From a virus, in the IMG/VR virus record IMGVR_UViG_3300034022_000487, positions 1 to 33,602 of that record: DNA of 33,602 bases; one strand, written 5' to 3'. A program made the position numbers and the translations under genes. This document shows positions 1 to 10,842 of this stretch, piece after piece; position 1 is the first letter of the stretch, and each line of letters begins with the position of its first letter. The notes beneath the pieces were generated by a model. The model saw only the letters and a list, made by a program, of their open reading frames with translations. It did no database searches and was not told the origin of the DNA.

Positions 1-552
1 TAATTCACAACCAACATTGGCATCACCTTGTCTCCAATTACTAACAAAATCTCTAGCCTCGTTTGGGGGACCGTGTGTAATCAATACGTCAGTATCGTCA
101 GGAATCATATCCCAGTATTTTTTTAATTCATCACCCAATCTAGGTAAATTAAAAGCCCAATTATAAAATTCAGGTTGCCAAGGACTACCCCAAAATTTAA
201 TTGGTCTTGAGAATTCTGAAGATTCTATGGTAAATTGACTATCTTCTAAATAAACTACATCAGATTGAGAAAGGTTTTCTTCATTCATTAAATGATAATA
301 CCAATCAAAGTCCCCTTTATGGTGAGGTTGGTGTCTATTTTCAAAAGCCCAGTCGTGGTTACCAGCGATAAAGATTTTAGAATCGAAACCTTTAACATTC
401 ATAAACCACTCAACAAATTCTTTAACCTCGTGAGGTTTACCGACGTTAGTACAATCACCCGCGTGAATTAACACATCACCTTCTGGTAATGGATTAAAAT
501 CTTCCATTATTTTGTGAAGACCGTGAGTGTCAGATATACAAACTATTCTCAT
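1..552 (-). CDS. Calcineurin-like metallophosphoesterase (3' end outside window)
   Basis: The minus-strand frame is open from an ATG at 552 to the window edge (184 codons), so the C-terminus is missing. The metal-binding motifs of the calcineurin-like phosphoesterase fold appear in order: SDTHG near residues 7-11, HAGD near 30-33, GNHD near 64-67 and THGPP near 165. The family cleaves phosphoester bonds in a two-metal site; the substrate cannot be told here. It is a soluble protein without a signal peptide. It lies just downstream of the terminator of the long ncRNA on the same strand. A TTTG / 19 bp / TATATTTT promoter match at 559-589 would start transcription about at the ATG, giving a nearly leaderless message. 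A link to the RNA-repair genes at 17.5-19.7 kb is possible but unproven. Confidence 0.88.
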   Translation of the reverse strand, partial: MRIVCISDTHGLHKIMEDFNPLPEGDVLIHAGDCTNVGKPHEVKEFVEWFMNVKGFDSKIFIAGNHDWAFENRHQPHHKGDFDWYYHLMNEENLSQSDVVYLEDSQFTIESSEFSRPIKFWGSPWQPEFYNWAFNLPRLGDELKKYWDMIPDDTDVLITHGPPNEARDFVSNWRQGDANVGCEL

Positions 553-558
553 AATAAT

Positions 559-589
559 AAAATATACATATTATTTTTGTCATTGCAAA
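559..589 (-). promoter_or_regulatory. Possible Bacteroidota-type promoter for the phosphoesterase
   Basis: On the minus strand TTTG (589-586), a 19-bp spacer and TATATTTT (566-559) resemble TTTG/TAnnTTTG, but the last base of the -7 box is not G. The -33 box would reuse the T-tract of the ncRNA terminator. The predicted start falls at about 552, the ATG itself. Confidence 0.35.
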
Positions 590-614
590 AAAAAAGTCAG
601 AATTTCTTCCGACT
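587..614 (-). terminator. Intrinsic terminator of the long ncRNA
   Basis: Reading the minus strand, AGTCGGAA and TTCTGACT form an 8-bp stem (one G-T pair) closed by a GAAA tetraloop, followed by a run of nine T (595-587). This is a textbook Rho-independent terminator and fixes the 3' end of the non-coding transcript. Confidence 0.85.
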
Positions 615-1515
615 AATCTTTTTGGGCCAAACGGTTTTAAAACGTTTCGATTCCACCACTTTGTTTTATTAAACAAAGAAAATAAAAGGGCTGAGATTAC
701 ACCATTTAACGATTGACTTTAGAGACATTATCTTTTCTTCTCTTATCCACTACCTTTTGAGTAGTACCAATCAGCGACGGTCAATTAGATTAACCAATCC
801 TTAAGTCGTTAGATACTCTTTTAATACTCATTACTCTTCGAGGTTGCCACCCCGACTAAGTCTTGCGAACTTAGAGAACTTTCTTAAAAATCACATTGGG
901 TTTGGACCCTTTGTGGCCGAGAACCCCTCTCGACTGTGTAGTCACCTGTCTCCAACGACTGACGAGCACTTTTCCTTGTTTTTAAGTTGTTAAACCATAT
1001 TAACAATTGATTGTGGTTCCGAATTTGGAAAGTAGTGGCTCGTCTGCCAGCCAAGTTATCTTTTGAACAACTCGATACTAAACTACTCTCTGTAACATCC
1101 CTGCTACCATATTTTTGGACCCCTTCAAAACCAAACCCTTGGTAGGGTTTAATTAAGGATGATAACGACACCACTCGTACTTCACCATACCTTTCGGTTT
1201 TAAGATTCCCATCATATTGAGTCACACAATTGTAAGATTGGAGATCCTACTTCTTGTAAACTAACTCTACAGATTATTCTTATTGGTGTTCCCACCTCAA
1301 CCAAACAACTCGGATTGCTTGATCATCGAACCACTTTCCCTACAGTGTTACCCTCAGTACTTAAGGTTCAACGATATTCTGTTTGCCTACTCGAGTTCCA
1401 TTGCTGAAACCGCAACCTGATTTAACCAAACCAGATCACTTTATCCCACTTTCGTGGTTTATTTTATTGACCATAGGCGGCCAATATTTTTAAATCAAAG
1501 AACTATTTCTTGTTT
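587..1515 (-). ncRNA. Long structured non-coding RNA, about 930 nt
   Basis: This stretch has no credible ORF, is richer in G+C than neighbouring genes, starts just after a strong promoter (1522-1553) and ends at an intrinsic terminator. Many helices can be seen by eye on the minus strand: ATTGGCC/GGTCAAT (1485-1466), CCAC-GAAA-GTGG (1457-1446), CTGGTTT/AAATCAG (1434-1417), GAACC/GGTTC (1369-1328), AAACCC/GGGTTT (1150-1133), CTAAGT/ACTTAG (874-856), and a long-range 7-bp helix GACGAGC/GCTCGTC (1044-1038 with 967-961) that encloses TTGTTAA/TTAACAA (1006-987). GNRA-type loops recur. Size, structure and position next to phage tRNA genes recall the large ornate phage RNAs GOLLD and ROOL, but I cannot match a consensus by eye; it could be a divergent member or a new class. 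Confidence 0.8.
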
Positions 1516-1521
1516 CTTTTA

Positions 1522-1553
1522 CAAAGATAAGAAAACTTTTTTAAAAAACAAAA
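1522..1553 (-). promoter_or_regulatory. Bacteroidota-type promoter of the long ncRNA
   Basis: The minus strand reads TTTTG (1553-1549), a 19-bp spacer and TATCTTTG (1529-1522), an exact match to the Bacteroidota sigma consensus. Transcription should begin near 1515. The 17 bases from the -7 box onward are identical to those at the promoter at 6045-6076. Confidence 0.8.
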
Positions 1554-1564
1554 TATAAATGAAA

Positions 1565-2377
1565 TTAAACTAAACTTTTTTTAAAAATATTTTTATCAAC
1601 CCTTCTTTCTGGGTAATTAAAGAAAATAGATTCATTTTCAGTTAAGGAACAAACTGTTTTATATTCGGTGGACTTAACTTCTTTAGTGTAATCGATATTT
1701 ATATGATGCTTCGTTATTTTATATATATTTTTAAAATATAGGTAGAATGTTGAAAATAAAAAACTTACATCACCTGGGTAATCTTTTAAAAAATCAAACT
1801 TACTTTCATTAAATGCTTCGGTATTTTTTTTATTATAAAAACCAAAATTTTTATTAATTAGGGACGACATATTGTCTTCAATGACTTTATCAATATCCTC
1901 AATTTTTAAAATTTTGTATCCCGCTCCAAATTTTTTATCGTATAGTAATTTTAAATCAGTTTTAATATCGATTATTTCATTTTTATAAATTTTATTTTTA
2001 CTATATAATATTTGAGAGCTTTGGGGTATATAATGAAAATCATCACATTCTTTTAAAAAAATATCATACCGATTAATATAGTTATCAATATTATGTGTGT
2101 TGGTGTTTTTTATGAGATTTAAAATATCTTGTTTATATTTATCCTCTCCATTTTTTGTCATATTGATTAGCCAATAATAAGAAGAAAAAAATCTATCTAC
2201 TGGATTTCTCACAAAAATATGAACATTATTTAAAAAATTATTAGGCTTGTTTTCTAACGATATATCAATATTTAAATGTTTAAAAAGATGAATGAATGTC
2301 ATATATAATATAGTATGCCCATTCTTATAGGGAATTATAATTGATAGGTCTTTTTCTTTTATGTTTAAAATTTCCAT
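1565..2377 (-). CDS. Sulfotransferase-like protein
   Basis: This 270-aa protein has the two PAPS-contact motifs of the sulfotransferase family. PYKNGHT near residues 16-22 fits the 5'-phosphosulfate loop. FVRNPVDRFFSSYYWL near 54-69 fits the 3'-phosphate motif, with its conserved Arg, Asn-Pro, Arg and Ser. The family moves sulfate from PAPS to a hydroxyl or amine of a sugar, peptide or small molecule. The frame stays open upstream to 2437, but that part lies inside the tRNA-like RNA, so I place the start at the ATG at 2377, 12 bp after that RNA. No promoter is seen in the gap, so it probably reads through from the tRNA array. The acceptor is unknown; modification of host surface glycans or tail glycans is a guess. 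It is very Lys/Asn/Ile-rich. Confidence 0.7.
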   Translation of the reverse strand: MEILNIKEKDLSIIIPYKNGHTILYMTFIHLFKHLNIDISLENKPNNFLNNVHIFVRNPVDRFFSSYYWLINMTKNGEDKYKQDILNLIKNTNTHNIDNYINRYDIFLKECDDFHYIPQSSQILYSKNKIYKNEIIDIKTDLKLLYDKKFGAGYKILKIEDIDKVIEDNMSSLINKNFGFYNKKNTEAFNESKFDFLKDYPGDVSFLFSTFYLYFKNIYKITKHHINIDYTKEVKSTEYKTVCSLTENESIFFNYPERRVDKNIFKKSLV

Positions 2378-2388
2378 AATAATATTTG

Positions 2389-2536
2389 CTGTAGTGGATG
2401 GACTCGAACCACCAAAGTGAGATTCAGTAAGTAACACTATGCCGGCCGGCTGGTGGTCTACCCCATATTACTTACCCATTTCTTTGTCACCGCCCCCGAG
2501 ACAGGAGGGCACGTTTGCCAGTTTCGTCACACTACA
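2389..2536 (-). tRNA. Aberrant tRNA-like RNA (anticodon-loop GTC) with a 79-nt variable arm
   Basis: A perfect 7-bp acceptor stem TGTAGTG/CACTACA joins two halves 148 nt apart. The 5' half has a canonical D arm (ACG/CGT stem, GG in the loop) and an anticodon arm CCCTC-CTGTCTC-GGGGG. The 3' half has a canonical T arm (loop TTCGAGT) and a G discriminator; CCA is not encoded. Between them lies a 79-nt variable region whose ends pair as GTGA/TCAC, then GTAAGTAA/TTACTTAC, then TATG/CATA. Type II tRNAs usually have 10-25 nt here. Position 37 of the loop is T rather than a purine, so decoding as Asp is doubtful. It may be a decayed tRNA, a decoy, or a new tRNA-like RNA. Confidence 0.65.
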
Positions 2537-2544
2537 ATTTAAAT

Positions 2545-2657
2545 AATCAATAGGGACAGTTCCTTCACTTCTGTCTTGTGTCTCCGTTGCAGTCAGCACT
2601 ATTGATTTTTGATGGATGAAAAACATCTATTCTTCTTGCGGTCTTCCATCAAAGACC
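2545..2657 (-). ncRNA. Structured spacer RNA between tRNA-Met and the tRNA-like RNA
   Basis: No ORF fits this spacer. The minus strand forms a 6-bp hairpin GGTCTT/AAGACC (2657-2640) and a 9-bp perfect stem AATCAATAG/CTATTGATT (2607-2599 with 2553-2545) that encloses GACAG/CTGTC. It may be a separate small RNA or a processing element of the tRNA transcript. Confidence 0.4.
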
Positions 2658-2671
2658 CATACTTTAAATAG

Positions 2672-2745
2672 TGGACCAGATAGGAATCGAACCTATTACC
2701 TTCACATTATGAGTGTGCCGCTCTAACCTAGTGAGCTACAAGTCC
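2672..2745 (-). tRNA. tRNA-Met(CAT) or tRNA-Ile2(CAT)
   Basis: Full 74-nt cloverleaf: acceptor GGACTTG/CTGGTCC with one T-T mismatch, D stem GCTC/GAGC, anticodon loop CTCATAA, T loop TTCGATT, discriminator A. The first pair is G-C, so it is not the initiator. CAT can be elongator Met or, if lysidine-modified, Ile for ATA codons, which are common in this phage. Confidence 0.9.
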
Positions 2746-2798
2746 ATTATCGTTTAATCTAACGATAAAATCTGATATCGTTTCTTTCAATGATTACG

Positions 2799-2872
2799 TG
2801 ATCCCGTTTGGATTCGAACCAAAGACCCACATCTTAGAAGGATGTTGCTCTATCCAACTGAGCTACGGAACC
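2799..2872 (-). tRNA. tRNA-Arg(TCT)
   Basis: Full 74-nt cloverleaf with acceptor GGTTCCG/CGGGATC, D stem GCTC/GAGC, anticodon stem ACATC/GATGT around CTTCTAA, and T stem TTTGG/CCAAA. It reads AGA, the main Arg codon of the surrounding phage genes. Confidence 0.93.
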
Positions 2873-2912
2873 AAAAATAACACTATCGTCTTTGAAAGTT
2901 TTTATTTAAATT

Positions 2913-3161
2913 TTATGCCTTACGGCTTGTTGTTATTTTACTTTCAAGTTTATCAAGTCGTGAATCCAATGTTCTATAAACATTTTGAATATCTTCTTCA
3001 CGATTTCTATTCGACCTTTCGAATTCATTACCCATTATGGTATGAATTGTTTCAATTTCTTTGTTAGTTTTATTAACCTTAACAAAGGCTATAACCGCAA
3101 CTACCGCAACTGCGATAACCACAACTATAGACATTCCTAAAATAAATGATAATATATCCAT
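2913..3161 (-). CDS. Small single-span membrane protein with coiled coil
   Basis: This 82-aa protein has one long hydrophobic helix at about residues 5-33, rich in Val, Ile and Ala. A charged heptad-like tail follows (IETIHTIMG, VYRTLDSRLDKLESK) that should form a coiled coil. The frame stays open to 3245, but the upstream part lies inside tRNA-Leu(TAA). The ATG at 3161 also has an AAGGAG ribosome-binding site at a good distance, unusual in this window, so I use it. It sits between tRNA-Leu(TAA) and tRNA-Arg in the same transcript. The function is unknown; membrane tethering or an exclusion role is possible, but nothing shows it. Confidence 0.7.
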   Translation of the reverse strand: MDILSFILGMSIVVVIAVAVVAVIAFVKVNKTNKEIETIHTIMGNEFERSNRNREEDIQNVYRTLDSRLDKLESKITTSRKA

Positions 3162-3200
3162 ATTGATTTTCTCCTTTATTTTCAAAGAACGATAGTGTTG

Positions 3201-3286
3201 TACCTGAGGAGGGACTTGAACCCACACGGACATTACTGTCCACAAGATTTTAAGTCTTGCGTGTATACCGATTTCACCACTCAGGT
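3201..3286 (-). tRNA. tRNA-Leu(TAA)
   Basis: 86-nt type II cloverleaf: acceptor ACCTGAG/CTCAGGT, anticodon stem CAAGA/TCTTG around CTTAAAA, variable arm GGACAGTAATGTCC, T loop TTCAAGT, discriminator A. It reads TTA, the dominant Leu codon here. Confidence 0.92.
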
Positions 3287-3319
3287 ATGTTTTTATTACA
3301 ATGTCAAAGAACTATAAAT

Positions 3320-3346
3320 CAAATATAACAAAAAAATATGGTATAA
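3320..3346 (-). promoter_or_regulatory. Weak promoter upstream of tRNA-Leu(TAA)
   Basis: The minus strand has TATATTTG (3327-3320), a good -7 box, about 27 bp upstream of the tRNA. At the -33 position there is only a T-run with no clear TTTG, so the call is tentative. Confidence 0.35.
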
Positions 3347-3349
3347 AAA

Positions 3350-3381
3350 AACCCCGAACATTTTTTAGTTTGTTCGGGGTT
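3350..3381 (-). terminator. Intrinsic terminator after the 3.4-4.1 kb gene pair
   Basis: An 11-bp perfect inverted repeat (AACCCCGAACA/TGTTCGGGGTT) is followed on the minus strand by seven T. It lies just past the stop of the 149-aa gene and separates that pair from tRNA-Leu(TAA). Confidence 0.88.
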
Positions 3382-3397
3382 CGATTTAACTAAAAAT

Positions 3398-3847
3398 TTA
3401 TTTTATTTTATATGATAATCCAAGTCCTAATGTTAAATCATCACCAACAACATTACCAATTGTCCATAAATTTATGACACTACTTGGTCTTAGTGGATTG
3501 TACATTATAAGAAAATTTGGTTTATTTCCATCAATTGTTGGTTGTAATCCAAACCCAACAATTGCCTTGTCTTCTTTTACTTGTCTAAGAACGCCAAACT
3601 TCATATTATCAGATACGTTTCCTGTTCTGGTATTGACACCAGGAGGAATTGTAATTCCACCGTTTGGGCCTCCTATTTCACCATAGGGAAGACCCGCATA
3701 GAATCCCCAACCCTTTTTCATAAAACCACCCGTTATATAACCATCTGATGGACCGCCTTTTCGAGTGGCAGTTATAAACCACTCTTGTCCATTTGCTACG
3801 ACTTCCACTCCCAAAAGTAACGTTAGCACTAATAAAATTTTTTTCAT
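3398..3847 (-). CDS. Exported small protein, probably outer-membrane or periplasmic
   Basis: This 149-aa protein begins with a clear signal peptide (MKKILLVLTLLLGVEVVANGQ, cleavage near residue 20). The rest is rich in Gly, aromatic residues and alternating polar/hydrophobic stretches, as in a small beta-barrel or beta-sandwich, and ends in LGLGLSYKIK. The start overlaps the end of the upstream gene by ATGA, so the two are translationally coupled. A terminator follows. I do not recognise a named family. Its export fits the envelope theme of the 6.2-17 kb block. Confidence 0.75.
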   Translation of the reverse strand: MKKILLVLTLLLGVEVVANGQEWFITATRKGGPSDGYITGGFMKKGWGFYAGLPYGEIGGPNGGITIPPGVNTRTGNVSDNMKFGVLRQVKEDKAIVGFGLQPTIDGNKPNFLIMYNPLRPSSVINLWTIGNVVGDDLTLGLGLSYKIK

Positions 3848-4146
3848 TTTTTTGATTTGGTTAAGGAATCCTCCTTAGCCCACTTATCTTTTAAATTTGC
3901 AACCTTCTCAATCTTTACAATTTTACCATTTAATTTGGTAATCTCGTCCGTGATTCCTTTGGTTTTGACGGCCCTGCTAGCGTAATTCTCATCTGTTACT
4001 TCAACCCATTCAATCTTTCTTTCAAGAGATTTAATCTCTTTTTTTATTTGATTGACTGACTTTCTTTCATCGGAAAGGCTTGGATCGATAGATGATGTTA
4101 ATGTATTAAAAAATAACATTAACGATAATGTGATTTTATCTATCAT
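3844..4146 (-). CDS. Small exported or membrane-anchored coiled-coil protein
   Basis: This 100-aa protein has a short hydrophobic N-terminus (residues 4-17) that could be a signal peptide or anchor. A Lys/Glu-rich helical region follows (about 25-100) with heptad-like spacing. A TTG / 20 bp / TATGTTTG promoter lies just upstream, and the gene overlaps the next by ATGA, so the two form a two-gene operon set inside the tRNA array. The function is not recognised. Confidence 0.7.
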   Translation of the reverse strand: MIDKITLSLMLFFNTLTSSIDPSLSDERKSVNQIKKEIKSLERKIEWVEVTDENYASRAVKTKGITDEITKLNGKIVKIEKVANLKDKWAKEDSLTKSKK

Positions 4147-4170
4147 ATATTATAAATATTAATAATATAA

Positions 4171-4202
4171 CAAACATACGAAATAAAATATTGAAAATCA
4201 AT
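4171..4202 (-). promoter_or_regulatory. Bacteroidota-type promoter of the two-gene envelope operon
   Basis: The minus strand reads ATTG (4202-4199), 20 bp, then TATGTTTG (4178-4171), 25 bp before the ATG at 4146. Confidence 0.7.
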
Positions 4203-4225
4203 ATCTTAACATAAAAAAAATATTG

Positions 4226-4297
4226 TACTCAGTACGGGATTCGAACCCGTATTACATCCGTGAAAGGGATGTGACCTAACCCTTAGTCGAACTGAGC
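4226..4297 (-). tRNA. tRNA-Glu(TTC)
   Basis: 72-nt cloverleaf: acceptor GCTCAGT/ACTGAGT with a terminal G-T pair, D stem GACT/GGTC, anticodon stem CATCC/GGATG around CTTTCAC, T stem ACGGG/CCCGT, discriminator A. Confidence 0.92.
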
Positions 4298-4299
4298 AA

Positions 4300-4534
4300 G
4301 TAATCACTCAAATGGGTATTTGTCATAATATCACAATTGTTGCACTATACTCTGGTTAATTACTCCGTCTGTATCCAACAGCTTTATGTTGGTTTATAAT
4401 TGGCTACTTTACTATAACTCACATTTTTATTTGTGATTAATTAAGAACTAACATTGCTATCAGGGTTTAAATGGTTCACAGATAAATCTGGAATCACCAC
4501 CTACTGGTTTTACAGTATCTTAGTTAATTCTTTG
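4300..4534 (-). ncRNA. Structured spacer RNA between tRNA-Ser and tRNA-Glu
   Basis: About 235 nt with no ORF longer than a few codons. The minus strand forms CCAACA/TGTTGG with a 6-nt loop (near 4388-4371), TCACA/TGTGA (near 4437-4419) and CAAAT-ACCC-ATTTG (near 4322-4309). It could be one small RNA or tRNA-processing spacers; no promoter or terminator is clear. Confidence 0.35.
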
Positions 4535-4620
4535 CGGAGAGAGTAGGATTCGAACCCACGGTACCTTTCAGTACTTCGGTTTTCAAGACCGACGCGATAG
4601 ACCAACTCTGCCATCTCTCC
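4535..4620 (-). tRNA. tRNA-Ser(TGA)
   Basis: 86-nt type II cloverleaf: acceptor GGAGAGA/TCTCTCC, anticodon stem TCGGT/ACCGA around CTTGAAA, variable arm GTACTGAAAGGTAC, T loop TTCGAAT, discriminator G. Confidence 0.93.
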
Positions 4621-4828
4621 AATTGTCCCACCTGAAGTCCCAGTGAGTGGATTTTTCTTCTGTTTTCGTATTGAAAACACGAGACGGTCTTACCCGCACA
4701 TAAAAGTCAAACATACTCGGTGGGATTGTTACCCCCATATTCCGAGACCCCCTCTTAAGGCCGTGGTAGGAGACAACCATAACATCTTGAAAGAACGTTA
4801 CCAAACTTACTGAGTACTTCTTACTCAT
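4621..4828 (-). ncRNA. Structured spacer RNA between tRNA-Asp and tRNA-Ser
   Basis: The minus strand folds into CTCGG/CCGAG (4746-4742 with 4720-4716) with an inner GGG/CCC, and a 7-bp hairpin TGTTTTC/GAAAACA (4679-4661). An 81-codon frame crosses it but runs into tRNA-Ser and uses CGG, AGG and GGG codons that neighbouring phage genes avoid. I therefore favour RNA over protein. Confidence 0.4.
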
Positions 4829-4830
4829 TG

Positions 4831-4904
4831 CGGACTGGACGAGACTCGAACTCGCGACCTCCTGCGTGACAGGCAGGCATTCTAACCAACTGAACTACCA
4901 ATCC
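4831..4904 (-). tRNA. tRNA-Asp(GTC)
   Basis: 74-nt cloverleaf: acceptor GGATTGG/CCAGTCC, anticodon stem CCTGC/GCAGG around CTGTCAC, T stem GCGAG/CTCGT, discriminator G. It is a normal GTC tRNA, in contrast to the odd GTC-loop RNA at 2389-2536. Confidence 0.93.
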
Positions 4905-4914
4905 AAAATTGATT

Positions 4915-5277
4915 CTAACTCACTTAAATTGCACCATCCGAGTCACTGCTCTGGTTGACAAAGTCCTCGTTGAGTTAGTCTCAAAAAAATTACAGGTTTT
5001 TCGCACCCGTTCGTACATCATAACAAACATATCCCTATGTCTGTGGTTACATTTTCGTCATTGGGTAATTACTCCCGACTTATAGTAACTCTACCCTCAC
5101 CGCTCTGATACCGCGAATCAAGACAGTTTTTTGGGATTTATAGACAGTGGGGTCACACCACCGTCGTCACCTGATTATCTTTTTGGAAAACAGAAGATGG
5201 GGGAGTGGACATCTGTTTTTATGATTGGCGTTTCTCGCTTATTTGCTAGCCCCGTTAAATCCCAATCAACCAATATA
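4915..5277 (-). ncRNA. Structured RNA region between the small basic ORF and tRNA-Asp
   Basis: About 360 nt with no ORF and many strong minus-strand helices: TGATTGG/CCAATCA (5268-5222), AAAACAGATG/CATC(T)TCTGTTTT (5219-5187), GACGGTGG/CCACTGTC (5165-5143), AGTTACT/AGTAATT with GGGT/ACCC below (5096-5063), ACATA-GGGA-TATGT (5040-5027), a terminator-like stem at 5010-4983, then an 8-bp long-range stem CTAACTCA/TGAGTTAG (4978-4971 with 4922-4915) just before tRNA-Asp. This density of perfect helices points to one or two functional RNAs. Confidence 0.55.
4983..5010 (-). terminator. Terminator-like hairpin inside the tRNA array
   Basis: On the minus strand ACGGGT pairs with ACCTGT (one G-T pair) across a GCGAAAA loop and is followed by A and seven T. 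It may end the 5277-4983 RNA or attenuate the downstream tRNAs. Confidence 0.5.
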
Positions 5278-5397
5278 CTATTTTCTTCTCCTTTGTCTTA
5301 AAGCCGAACCAGCAAGAGTTTTCGTAGTTCTACTCGATTTCTTACTACTTAAAGCTTTACTAGCCCTTTTTGCCACTCTTCTCGATGTTCTAGCCAT
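5278..5397 (-). CDS. 39-aa highly basic protein
   Basis: A 39-codon ORF opens with ATG 15 bp after tRNA-fMet. The product starts MARTSRRVAKRASKALSSKK, goes on through a TLAGSALRQ segment, and ends in RQRRRK. Nearly half of its residues are Arg, Lys or Ser, and the hydrophobic residues are spaced as in amphipathic helices. This suggests binding to nucleic acid or ribosomes. I recall similar short Lys/Ser proteins with a GSAL motif in phages and mobile elements, but cannot name a family. The start is well placed, and the promoter at 5497-5528 would transcribe it after tRNA-fMet. Confidence 0.6.
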   Translation of the reverse strand: MARTSRRVAKRASKALSSKKSSRTTKTLAGSALRQRRRK

Positions 5398-5412
5398 AGT
5401 CCAAAGTTTTAG

Positions 5413-5484
5413 TTGCGAGAGAGGGAATCGAACCCCCGACCTAAAGGTTATGAGCCTTCCGAGCTACCGCTGCTCTATCTCGCG
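5413..5484 (-). tRNA. Initiator tRNA-fMet(CAT)
   Basis: 72-nt cloverleaf with acceptor CGCGAGA/TCTCGCA. The first pair is a C-A mismatch, the hallmark of bacterial initiator tRNAs that allows formylation. D stem GAGC/GCTC, anticodon stem GAAGG/CCTTT around CTCATAA, T loop TTCGATT, discriminator A. The usual three G-C pairs below the anticodon loop are reduced to two, and the D loop is short. Confidence 0.85.
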
Positions 5485-5496
5485 ATGTTTGTTATA

Positions 5497-5528
5497 CAAA
5501 GATATGAAATAATTTCGAATATACAAAA
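5497..5528 (-). promoter_or_regulatory. Bacteroidota-type promoter upstream of tRNA-fMet
   Basis: The minus strand reads TTTTG (ending at 5524), an exact 19-bp spacer and TATCTTTG (5504-5497). The expected start lies a few bases before tRNA-fMet (5484). Confidence 0.75.
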
Positions 5529-5546
5529 ATATCTCAAATCTTTTTG

Positions 5547-5617
5547 TTGTCCCTCAAGGATTCGAACCTCAACTAGATGTGCCAAATACACCTGTACTAC
5601 CGTTATACCAAAGGACA
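5547..5617 (-). tRNA. tRNA-Gln(TTG)
   Basis: 71-nt cloverleaf: acceptor TGTCCTT/AGGGACA, anticodon stem GGTGT/ACATC around ATTTGGC, T loop TTCGAAT, discriminator A. It reads CAA, the preferred Gln codon here. Confidence 0.9.
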
Positions 5618-5622
5618 TTATG

Positions 5623-5702
5623 TACCCAAGGTCGGACTCGAACCGACACGTCTTTCGACACGGCTTCTAAGACCGCTGTGTATACCATTCCACCACTCGG
5701 GT
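5623..5702 (-). tRNA. tRNA-Leu(TAG)
   Basis: 80-nt type II cloverleaf: acceptor ACCCGAG/CTTGGGT, anticodon stem GCGGT/GCCGT around CTTAGAA, short variable arm, T stem GTCGG/CCGAC, discriminator A. Confidence 0.92.
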
Positions 5703-5709
5703 ATTGTCG

Positions 5710-5781
5710 CGTTGATGATAGGACTCGAACCTATAGTCGTTCGGTTAACAGCCGAAAGCTTCACCATTAAGCTACATCAAC
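5710..5781 (-). tRNA. tRNA-Asn(GTT)
   Basis: 72-nt cloverleaf: acceptor GTTGATG/CATCAAC, anticodon stem TTCGG/CCGAA around CTGTTAA, T stem ATAGG/CCTAT, discriminator G. Confidence 0.93.
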
Positions 5782-5786
5782 AACTG

Positions 5787-5859
5787 TAGAGTAGACAGGG
5801 GTCGAACCTGCACGCACTTGCTCCCAAAGCAAGGGACCTACCTATTGGTCAACTACTCT
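5787..5859 (-). tRNA. tRNA-Pro(TGG)
   Basis: 73-nt cloverleaf: acceptor AGAGTAG/CTACTCT, D stem GACC/GGTC, anticodon stem CTTGC/GCAAG around TTTGGGA, T stem GCAGG/CCTGT, discriminator A. It is the first tRNA of the array. Confidence 0.92.
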
Positions 5860-5866
5860 AAAACAA

Positions 5867-5898
5867 AAAACCTCGAGATTTTTACGTCCCGAGGTTTT
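5867..5898 (-). terminator. Intrinsic terminator before the tRNA array
   Basis: A 9-bp perfect stem AAAACCTCG/CGAGGTTTT is followed by T-rich sequence on both strands. On the minus strand it would end the short transcript from the 6045-6076 promoter, leaving an RNA of about 170 nt. Confidence 0.65.
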
Positions 5899-5921
5899 CT
5901 AATATTTTAAGTTAAATTAAA

Positions 5922-5996
5922 TTAACCGACATCAGTATCATCGAGACATATGGACATAGGTAGCTCATTCCAATTAGGTTGGTTTGAAAATGACAT
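5922..5996 (-). CDS. Possible 24-aa microprotein
   Basis: A 25-codon frame with ATG start and TAA stop fills the short unit between the 6045-6076 promoter and the 5867-5898 terminator. The peptide starts MSFSNQPNWNELP and ends in an acidic DDTDVG tail. No ribosome-binding site is seen, as is usual in Bacteroidota. It could be a real microprotein or chance coding inside a small RNA of about 170 nt. Confidence 0.35.
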   Translation of the reverse strand: MSFSNQPNWNELPMSICLDDTDVG

Positions 5997-6044
5997 TGTA
6001 TGTGTTAATTGTCTCATTGAATTTAGTTTTATCTTTTTCTTTTA

Positions 6045-8550: not shown

Positions 8551-10842
8551 TTGAAAAAAATAATAACAATATTACTACTAACACTTTGCTCGTTTGTAAC
8601 GAATGGGCAAAGTGTTTCTGCACCAGACTCTAAGTCTTTTTTACAATCCACTAGTGCACAAGATGCTAGTGGTTTTGTTTTAAGTGGGTTTAATTCAACA
8701 GCCACACTGTTAGCGTCAATTAGTTTAGTTAATCCTCCATCAGGGACAACATTTGTATTAAACACTACAACCGGATTAACAGCGGCAAGTGGATTTACTT
8801 TAAGTGGTAATAAAACTCGTTTGGTGGTAACGGGTACAATGGCAAGTATCAATACGGCACTAACATCCCTAAAAGTAAATACAGGTTCAGTAAGAGGTAA
8901 TATTGCTTTATCGGTAGCAGCAACTATAAACCCAACGGGATATTATTACAATGGTGTAAACGGACACTTTTATAGACCAATAACAACCGGTGCAACTTAT
9001 ACGGCGGCGAGAGCGGCTTCTCTATTAACAACATTCAAAGGTCAAACTGGATATTTGGTAACAATTACTTCAGCAGATGAAGATGCATTTATTTTTGCAA
9101 ATGTACCCCAATCAAATATCTGGTTTGCATTAACGGATGAAGCAAGTGAAGCAAGATGGACAATAGATGCTGGACCTGAAAAGGGAACTTTAATTAAAAT
9201 CAACAATGGCCAATTAAATGGTAACATTTCTGGTCAATACAACAACTGGGCACCTGGTGAACCAAATGATAGTGGTAATGAGGACTACGCGGTAACCAAA
9301 TGGAATGGTTCACAATGGAATGATTTACCAAATCATTTTGCAAATCCTTATGTAATTGAATATGGAACTTGGTCTAATCCCGATGATGCAACATTTACTG
9401 AATTTTATACCAATAGTGTATCTCATTCAAATGGTGAAGTATTAACCGCTAAATTTAATTTTGACTTTGGTGGTAATGTGGATGAAACTAAATTTTCAGC
9501 AAAGGCGAACAGATATGTAAATAATCTATGGAGTACAACAACTAACACATCAAGAGCTATAAGTGGTTTAGGTAAAGTTGATTTAACAAATGATTTAGAT
9601 ACCGCAAAAGTAAGTGGTGTTGGTACTAAAGCATCAACAACGGCAGGACAAGTTGAATGGGCAATAATAAATCCATATGACGCAAATTTAGGTGGTCATC
9701 AATTGTTAATAGACGAAAGAGAATTTGATGGAACAGGAGTATCTCCAAGTGATATAACATCAGTTAAATTATTTGATATATACGATGGACCGGTTAGTAT
9801 TCATAGTGTAAGTGGGTTTTGGAAAACTTATATAATGCCCGGTAATTTGACAACTAAGATAACATCATCCACATTTCAGGCACAATTAAGATTACAAGAT
9901 GGTTGGTACGGAACAAGAGCAGAATTTACTTTCTCACCAATTCAAAGTTATAAACAACACGGAATTGATATAATTGCAAACTCACAAAGTGAGTTAAACA
10001 CATTATATAGTAGTGTTGTAACCGTAACAGATGTTTATTTAGCATTTAAGGAATTAGCTAATGGTGGATTATTTGGAAATGAAAGTGGAAATGAATTTAC
10101 AAATGGTATTCAATTTTTGAACGCGGATGTAGATGGTAATGGTATATTCAATGAAGGAGATACATATAAACTATTACAACATTTGACAGGAGTTCAACCA
10201 CTTACAGAATATTCAGCATTGACATATTTGATGAAACTTTATAGTAAATCAGATTACGATGGAATTACTAAATCTAATTGGAATACAAAATTTAATTCAA
10301 CAAGAAGTTTATTTCCGTTTAGTTTAAACACAGGTACACTTAATAATACATACAATGTAAATGTAACTTGGAAAGGTGATGTAAACCTATCTCATTCCGC
10401 ACAACAAAGTGCAACCGGTGTTGTAGGTAATTCTATTAGAACTATGAGTTTGAGTACTAATTCAGTTTCTAATCAAATTAACGCATATCTAATGGGTGAA
10501 AACATTGGAGGTAAATTAATAGTAACAATATTAGTAGACCCATTACAACAAGAGGTGGTTGGTACTCAATTCAACTTGAATTATGATAACACGTTATTAA
10601 AGTTAGAAAAGATAGAATTTACAACTAAAGGTAACCCAACCAATTTTGGAACCGATAGAGGTTCATATATAACGTTGGGTTCATTAATAACCGATGGTTC
10701 AAATACATTAGATAAAACAACAGAATATAAAATAACATTTGTACCAAAAATTGGATTAACTGGAATATTAGGGTTGACTTCAATATCAACAACTGATGCA
10801 GTTAATAAAAATGGAACACAATTAAAAGTAAAAGTAAACTAA
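8551..10842 (+). CDS. Secreted C-type lectin protein with dockerin and cohesin-like modules
   Basis: This 763-aa protein starts with TTG at 8551, forced by the stop of the previous gene 2 bp upstream and by the signal peptide MKKIITILLLTLCSFVTNGQ. Residues 25-125 look Ig-like. Residues 130-270 are a C-type lectin domain (GYLVTITSADEDAF, YNNWAPGEPNDSGNEDYA, WNDLP, PYVIEYG). EPN plus WND are the calcium and sugar-binding signatures, of mannose-type preference in characterised lectins. A dockerin-like unit lies at 487-546 with a calcium loop DVDGNGIFNEGD. The last 115 residues resemble a cohesin fold. It is likely exported and carbohydrate-binding. Its stop overlaps the next start (TAATG). It could act in receptor masking, aggregation or adhesion; no diversity-generating cassette is visible. 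Confidence 0.8.
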   Translation: MKKIITILLLTLCSFVTNGQSVSAPDSKSFLQSTSAQDASGFVLSGFNSTATLLASISLVNPPSGTTFVLNTTTGLTAASGFTLSGNKTRLVVTGTMASINTALTSLKVNTGSVRGNIALSVAATINPTGYYYNGVNGHFYRPITTGATYTAARAASLLTTFKGQTGYLVTITSADEDAFIFANVPQSNIWFALTDEASEARWTIDAGPEKGTLIKINNGQLNGNISGQYNNWAPGEPNDSGNEDYAVTKWNGSQWNDLPNHFANPYVIEYGTWSNPDDATFTEFYTNSVSHSNGEVLTAKFNFDFGGNVDETKFSAKANRYVNNLWSTTTNTSRAISGLGKVDLTNDLDTAKVSGVGTKASTTAGQVEWAIINPYDANLGGHQLLIDEREFDGTGVSPSDITSVKLFDIYDGPVSIHSVSGFWKTYIMPGNLTTKITSSTFQAQLRLQDGWYGTRAEFTFSPIQSYKQHGIDIIANSQSELNTLYSSVVTVTDVYLAFKELANGGLFGNESGNEFTNGIQFLNADVDGNGIFNEGDTYKLLQHLTGVQPLTEYSALTYLMKLYSKSDYDGITKSNWNTKFNSTRSLFPFSLNTGTLNNTYNVNVTWKGDVNLSHSAQQSATGVVGNSIRTMSLSTNSVSNQINAYLMGENIGGKLIVTILVDPLQQEVVGTQFNLNYDNTLLKLEKIEFTTKGNPTNFGTDRGSYITLGSLITDGSNTLDKTTEYKITFVPKIGLTGILGLTSISTTDAVNKNGTQLKVKVN

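Follow-up and report, generated by a model that had tools for sequence, protein, structure and literature searches.

Near one end of the virus record IMGVR_UViG_3300034022_000487 (33,602 bases, which we call the window) lies a stretch that an earlier note, made from the sequence alone, took for a large phage non-coding RNA of the GOLLD or ROOL sort beside tRNAs, perhaps a divergent member or a new class. Which RNA does this locus encode, and what might it do for the phage? Cryo-EM of GOLLD env-38 revealed a closed, hollow 14-mer cage with D7 symmetry (Kretsch et al. 2025, PMC12286853), in which the caps are built from the 5' domains and the rings from the 3' domains, with a disordered linker inside (PMC12286853). 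ROOL, a large phage RNA found near tRNAs, forms an 8-mer nanocage (PMC12286853).

Results

Family assignment and relatives

The Rfam GOLLD model (RF02032) matches positions 688-1090 of the minus strand from end to end (model positions 1-416 of 416); its score of 312.4 bits (E 7.6e-89) is roughly double the curated gathering score of 150 bits, whereas ROOL gave no match at its gathering score in the window, nor any up to E 1 in 540-6000. Thus, of the two families to which the earlier note had pointed, GOLLD itself was recovered and ROOL was not; the full Rfam match upholds the GOLLD assignment and leaves neither the divergent member nor the new class standing. Judged from its sequence, the RNA at 587-1515 (minus strand) is an ordinary full-length GOLLD, a known class, neither notably divergent nor new, and no structural departure from GOLLD was seen in it. 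The features of the locus are as follows.

587-1515, minus strand: GOLLD RNA, whole transcript of 929 nt, placed by Rfam, full-length homologs and the fold, with its start set by the promoter
1522-1553, minus strand: promoter TTTTG-19-TATCTTTG (-33/-7), an exact motif found at the corresponding position in 10 of 99 relatives
1092-1497, minus strand: 5' domain, with 124 pairs in the consensus, of which 91 show compensatory change, and 95% of cells paired
688-1090, minus strand: 3' domain, the extent of the Rfam model, with 120 pairs in the consensus and 93% of cells paired
969-1027, minus strand: variable linker in the 3' domain, 49-71 nt in relatives
659-678, minus strand: additional 3' hairpin beyond the GOLLD core, seen in the fold, with hairpins at the same place in close relatives
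587-614, minus strand: intrinsic terminator AGTCGGAA-GAAA-TTCTGACT with a T-run, from sequence and fold

The Rfam model describes the 3' domain only and the 5' half is without a model, which speaks for a new class of large RNA, or a relative of ROOL, that merely resembles GOLLD. We regard this reading as extremely improbable and rejected it: the GOLLD match is full length, ROOL is unmatched, and a covarying 5' half is common to about 100 GOLLD loci. In the window, about 425 nt lie 5' of the 3' domain and the total exceeds 800 nt, as would befit a GOLLD, whose less conserved 5' domain measures about 420 nt; this 5' part is common to 61 non-redundant loci and covaries in them.

Scanning IMG/VR viral contigs with a motif of the 3' domain yielded at least 120 further loci, in which the nucleotides set by the motif (within about 750-713) cannot vary, having been prescribed by the search. 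By a profile search, 102 sequences (the listed loci and the window) align across both domains, and 61 of them are non-redundant; the closest relatives among the matches listed share 90-91% identity. In an annotated phage collection, relatives were found only in LR745206 (634 kb) and LR756502 (642 kb), two uncultured huge phages in which Rfam GOLLD scores 287 and 275 bits. Bacterial and archaeal genomes were searched with a clade-specific DNA pattern, and the two matches, in Ancylomarina and a WOR-3 MAG, were rejected; neither carries an Rfam GOLLD, and they are thus about the number expected by chance.

Promoter, terminator and coding potential

Both ends that the earlier note had assigned to the RNA are present, the promoter at 1553-1522 and the GAAA-capped terminator at 614-587, and both lie on the minus strand, the note having named no strand. 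We take the promoter to be of the Bacteroidota type. Its motif occurs four times in the AT-rich window against 2.75 expected; a window-wide host signal was therefore rejected, the count being not above chance and the motif conserved only at the GOLLD position. At that position it is found in 10 of 99 relatives (among the matches listed), compared with 0.05% of shuffled upstream regions. The RNA is also unusually stable, with a folding-energy z of -5.5, and not one of 20 shuffles reaches its stability.

A protein-coding or decayed gene region in place of a functional RNA, for which a single 113-aa mechanical ORF (884-1225, minus strand) can be adduced, has virtually no chance of being correct and was rejected, as this frame is open in 1 of the 61 non-redundant sequences, namely the window, lengths across the region vary among relatives regardless of multiples of three, and covariation is strong. 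The stretch of about 930 nt is therefore free of a credible ORF, as first described, and a conserved protein frame, which was looked for, is absent among the 61 sequences.

Consensus fold and loop contacts

The helices noticed at first sight, at least eight and one of them long-range, are present in a consensus of 39 helices and 244 pairs drawn from the 61 non-redundant sequences, with standard pairs in 94% of cells. Compensatory (double) changes occur in 172 of the 244 pairs, nearly all 39 helices show some, and the covariation among homologs by which the RNA was to be judged is thus borne out. When the letters of the 3' partners were dealt anew, 77-81% of cells were paired and compensatory cells fell to about a quarter to a third; when partners were slid by 1-3 columns, 37-44% were paired, a comparison in which the structure is favoured over the slid versions because it was derived from the alignment on which it is scored. 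The 3' half of the consensus is in accord with the structure given by Rfam.

Across the same 61 sequences, mutual information pointed to five further helices beyond the nested structure, of the loop-loop or pseudoknot kind, which nearly all sequences can form despite changes; they are listed here with a hairpin whose loop is self-complementary.

1385-1478, minus strand: loop helix within the 5' domain, 1478-1473 with 1390-1385; 61 of 61 pair over six positions, with covariation
1019-1313, minus strand: loop helix 1313-1310 with 1022-1019, joining the 5' to the 3' domain; 61 of 61 over four positions, with covariation
961-1044, minus strand: pseudoknot 1044-1038 with 967-961, closing the linker; 60-61 of 61 pair over seven positions
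773-946, minus strand: pseudoknot 946-941 with 778-773; 61 of 61 pair over six positions, with covariation
904-975, minus strand: contact 975-974 with 905-904; 61 of 61 pair, and 974-905 is G-C in 38 and C-G in 23
859-871, minus strand: hairpin with self-complementary loop CGCAA; the loop reads CGCAA in 49, GUCGA in 8 and UGCAA in 3

Matched by position, the contact 975-974/905-904 would be the L20-J13/15 kissing contact, which cryo-EM places between chains (PMC12286853). Hairpin 871-859, with helix numbers again matched by position, would sit at the self-kissing bridge B8 (loop L21a), and its switch from CGCAA to GUCGA amounts to the GC/CG change given by Kretsch et al. for this bridge (PMC12286853). 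Some GOLLDs are reported to carry a tRNA within the linker; this was also sought, and rejected, as none of the 61 sequences has one.

Phage and gene neighbourhood

The window carries a T4-like portal gene (E 1.4e-75), along with a T4-type terminase, an RNA ligase and a ClpA/B-like protease; its portal is most similar to those of a Microcystis phage (42% identity) and Flavobacterium phages (37%). The phage is an uncultured T4-like phage, and promoter type and portal relatives together make a Bacteroidota host likely, not proven. Elsewhere in the window, 8551-10842 (plus strand) encodes a 763-aa protein in which Pfam recognises a C-type-lectin-like domain (PF00059, E 3.4e-05) and which may serve in receptor binding.

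Eleven tRNAs lie at 2671-5859 on the strand of GOLLD (minus). Among the non-redundant matches listed, 30 of 61 relatives have tRNAs in the examined flanks and 31 of 61 have none there. Directly upstream of GOLLD, a GH19 endolysin is found in 18 and an M23 peptidase in 14 of the 60 non-redundant loci listed, which suggests late, lysis-linked GOLLD expression; 15 of the 60 have a ClpA-like protease no more than 5 kb away (loci L002-L121). A constant partner gene was rejected, the commonest neighbour family occurring in a third of the loci listed. The neighbouring genes would perhaps fit a translation-related cargo.

A tRNA-like RNA beside GOLLD

2389-2536, minus strand: tRNA-like RNA with covarying acceptor stem, D-, anticodon-like and T-arms and a large, conserved and covarying variable arm of about 75 nt with a palindromic tip

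This RNA matched nothing in Rfam and was not called by ARAGORN; no description of it was found in the open-access literature, and it is apparently undescribed. Relatives occur at loci L006, L075, L081, L100, L101, L120 and L122-L225, and the variable-arm pattern was found in 110 viral-contig stretches and in no bacterial or archaeal genome. The acceptor stem is kept in 40 of 40 aligned sequences, with compensatory changes at six of its seven positions; in a separate search it was perfect in 90 of 111 copies, and the remaining 21 lack the strict T-arm motif on which that search insisted.

In 65 of 66 unique sequences the variable arm is tipped by a perfect palindrome 8 or 10 nt long, of which a dozen kinds occur; shuffling leads one to expect about 5%. 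Retention of a palindrome through changes of its sequence would be expected if two identical molecules paired with each other, though a short hairpin would account for part of it. In the anticodon-like loop GUC is invariant and the preceding base varies, which speaks against ordinary decoding. A GUC:GAC pseudoknot is possible and was not adopted, as its paired positions do not vary. GOLLD occurs in 21 of 50 records with the tRNA-like RNA, and the tRNA-like RNA in 3 of 50 GOLLD records, so the two share phage lineages and neither depends on the other.

Several further elements were observed nearby or in related phages. A 290-aa ORF (1565-2437, minus strand) between GOLLD and the tRNA-like RNA has no Pfam match and is mostly missing in close relatives. 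The spacer between tRNA-Met and the tRNA-like RNA (2541-2668, minus strand) holds the long inverted repeats TTTGATGGA/TCCATCAAA and AATCAATAG/CTATTGATT and is partly conserved in L081 and L100. Additional aberrant tRNA-like RNAs occur in GOLLD-carrying and related phages (L231:1501-1601, plus strand; L232:1501-1634, plus strand; L236:1501-1637, minus strand; also L049, L079 and L240-L244), with acceptors of the TAGTCAAG/CTTGACTA type and a core GGTTATAGCA..GTGGGTAA..CTATAATGGCA..CCCGTG; ARAGORN calls none of them as a tRNA.

Discussion

The window RNA belongs to the GOLLD family, its fold is supported by covariation, and its contact sites are conserved. Because fold and contact sites are conserved, the same cage assembly is the best explanation, and the locus is very probably a complete GOLLD of an uncultured T4-like phage, transcribed from its own minus-strand promoter, whose chains would form the 14-mer cage expected from the published GOLLD structure. 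The promoter would drive synthesis of the RNA, and each chain would fold into 5' and 3' domains tied together by the loop contacts. Kissing loops and A-minor contacts could then join fourteen such chains into a hollow cage that encloses the variable linker, and this cage may serve late in infection, until lysis, as a container for translation-related RNA (tRNAs, tRNA-like RNAs or ribosomes).

The purpose of such a cage is a separate matter. With rather low confidence, we name as the most likely role a container in which translation-related RNA is held, protected or sequestered. For it stand the tRNAs on the strand of GOLLD, those flanking 30 of 61 relatives, and the endolysin or peptidase genes directly upstream in relatives; siting by tRNAs recurs in the window and in published GOLLDs, and a ribosome pull-down is mentioned for GOLLD in the literature. 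The cargo idea is weakened by the half of the relatives without a nearby tRNA, by the tRNA-free linkers and by the GOLLD of a Lactobacillus brevis prophage, which accumulates in lytic infection and is dispensable for phage production (PMC7567579). These same observations, together with the lack of a constant partner gene, favour a cage whose role lies apart from tRNAs and ribosomes, enclosing its own linker only or acting as a surface scaffold or decoy for a protein, with the tRNAs as mere neighbours in a non-coding stretch; the repeated siting by tRNAs and the ribosome pull-down argue against it, and we consider this account about evenly balanced between right and wrong. That GOLLD works with the neighbouring tRNA-like RNA, self-paired through its palindrome, as cargo or partner of the cage, seems very unlikely, and the tRNA-like RNA deserves a study of its own.

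As a GOLLD, the locus extends the known examples by one of full length, from a phage lineage that is T4-like and probably infects Bacteroidota, and the 61-sequence set tests the 5' domain, which lies outside the Rfam model, as well as the loop contacts, by near-perfect covariation. Testable leads on the role of GOLLD come from its surroundings, namely the tRNAs, the unusual tRNA-like RNA and, in relatives, genes for lysis.

ROOL, likewise a large phage RNA sited near tRNAs, also builds a nanocage but differs from the window RNA in sequence and secondary structure. The GOLLDs of LR745206 and LR756502 share 69-75% identity with the window RNA over parts of the molecule, and their genomes are much larger. 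With known GOLLD RNA (RF02032; env-38) the window RNA has in common the full-length model match, the length, two domains and a variable linker, covarying loop contacts, a self-complementary loop with the GC/CG switch and a location near phage tRNAs, whereas a linker without a tRNA, the extra hairpin before the terminator, the Bacteroidota-type promoter and the T4-like phage are its own and concern details only.
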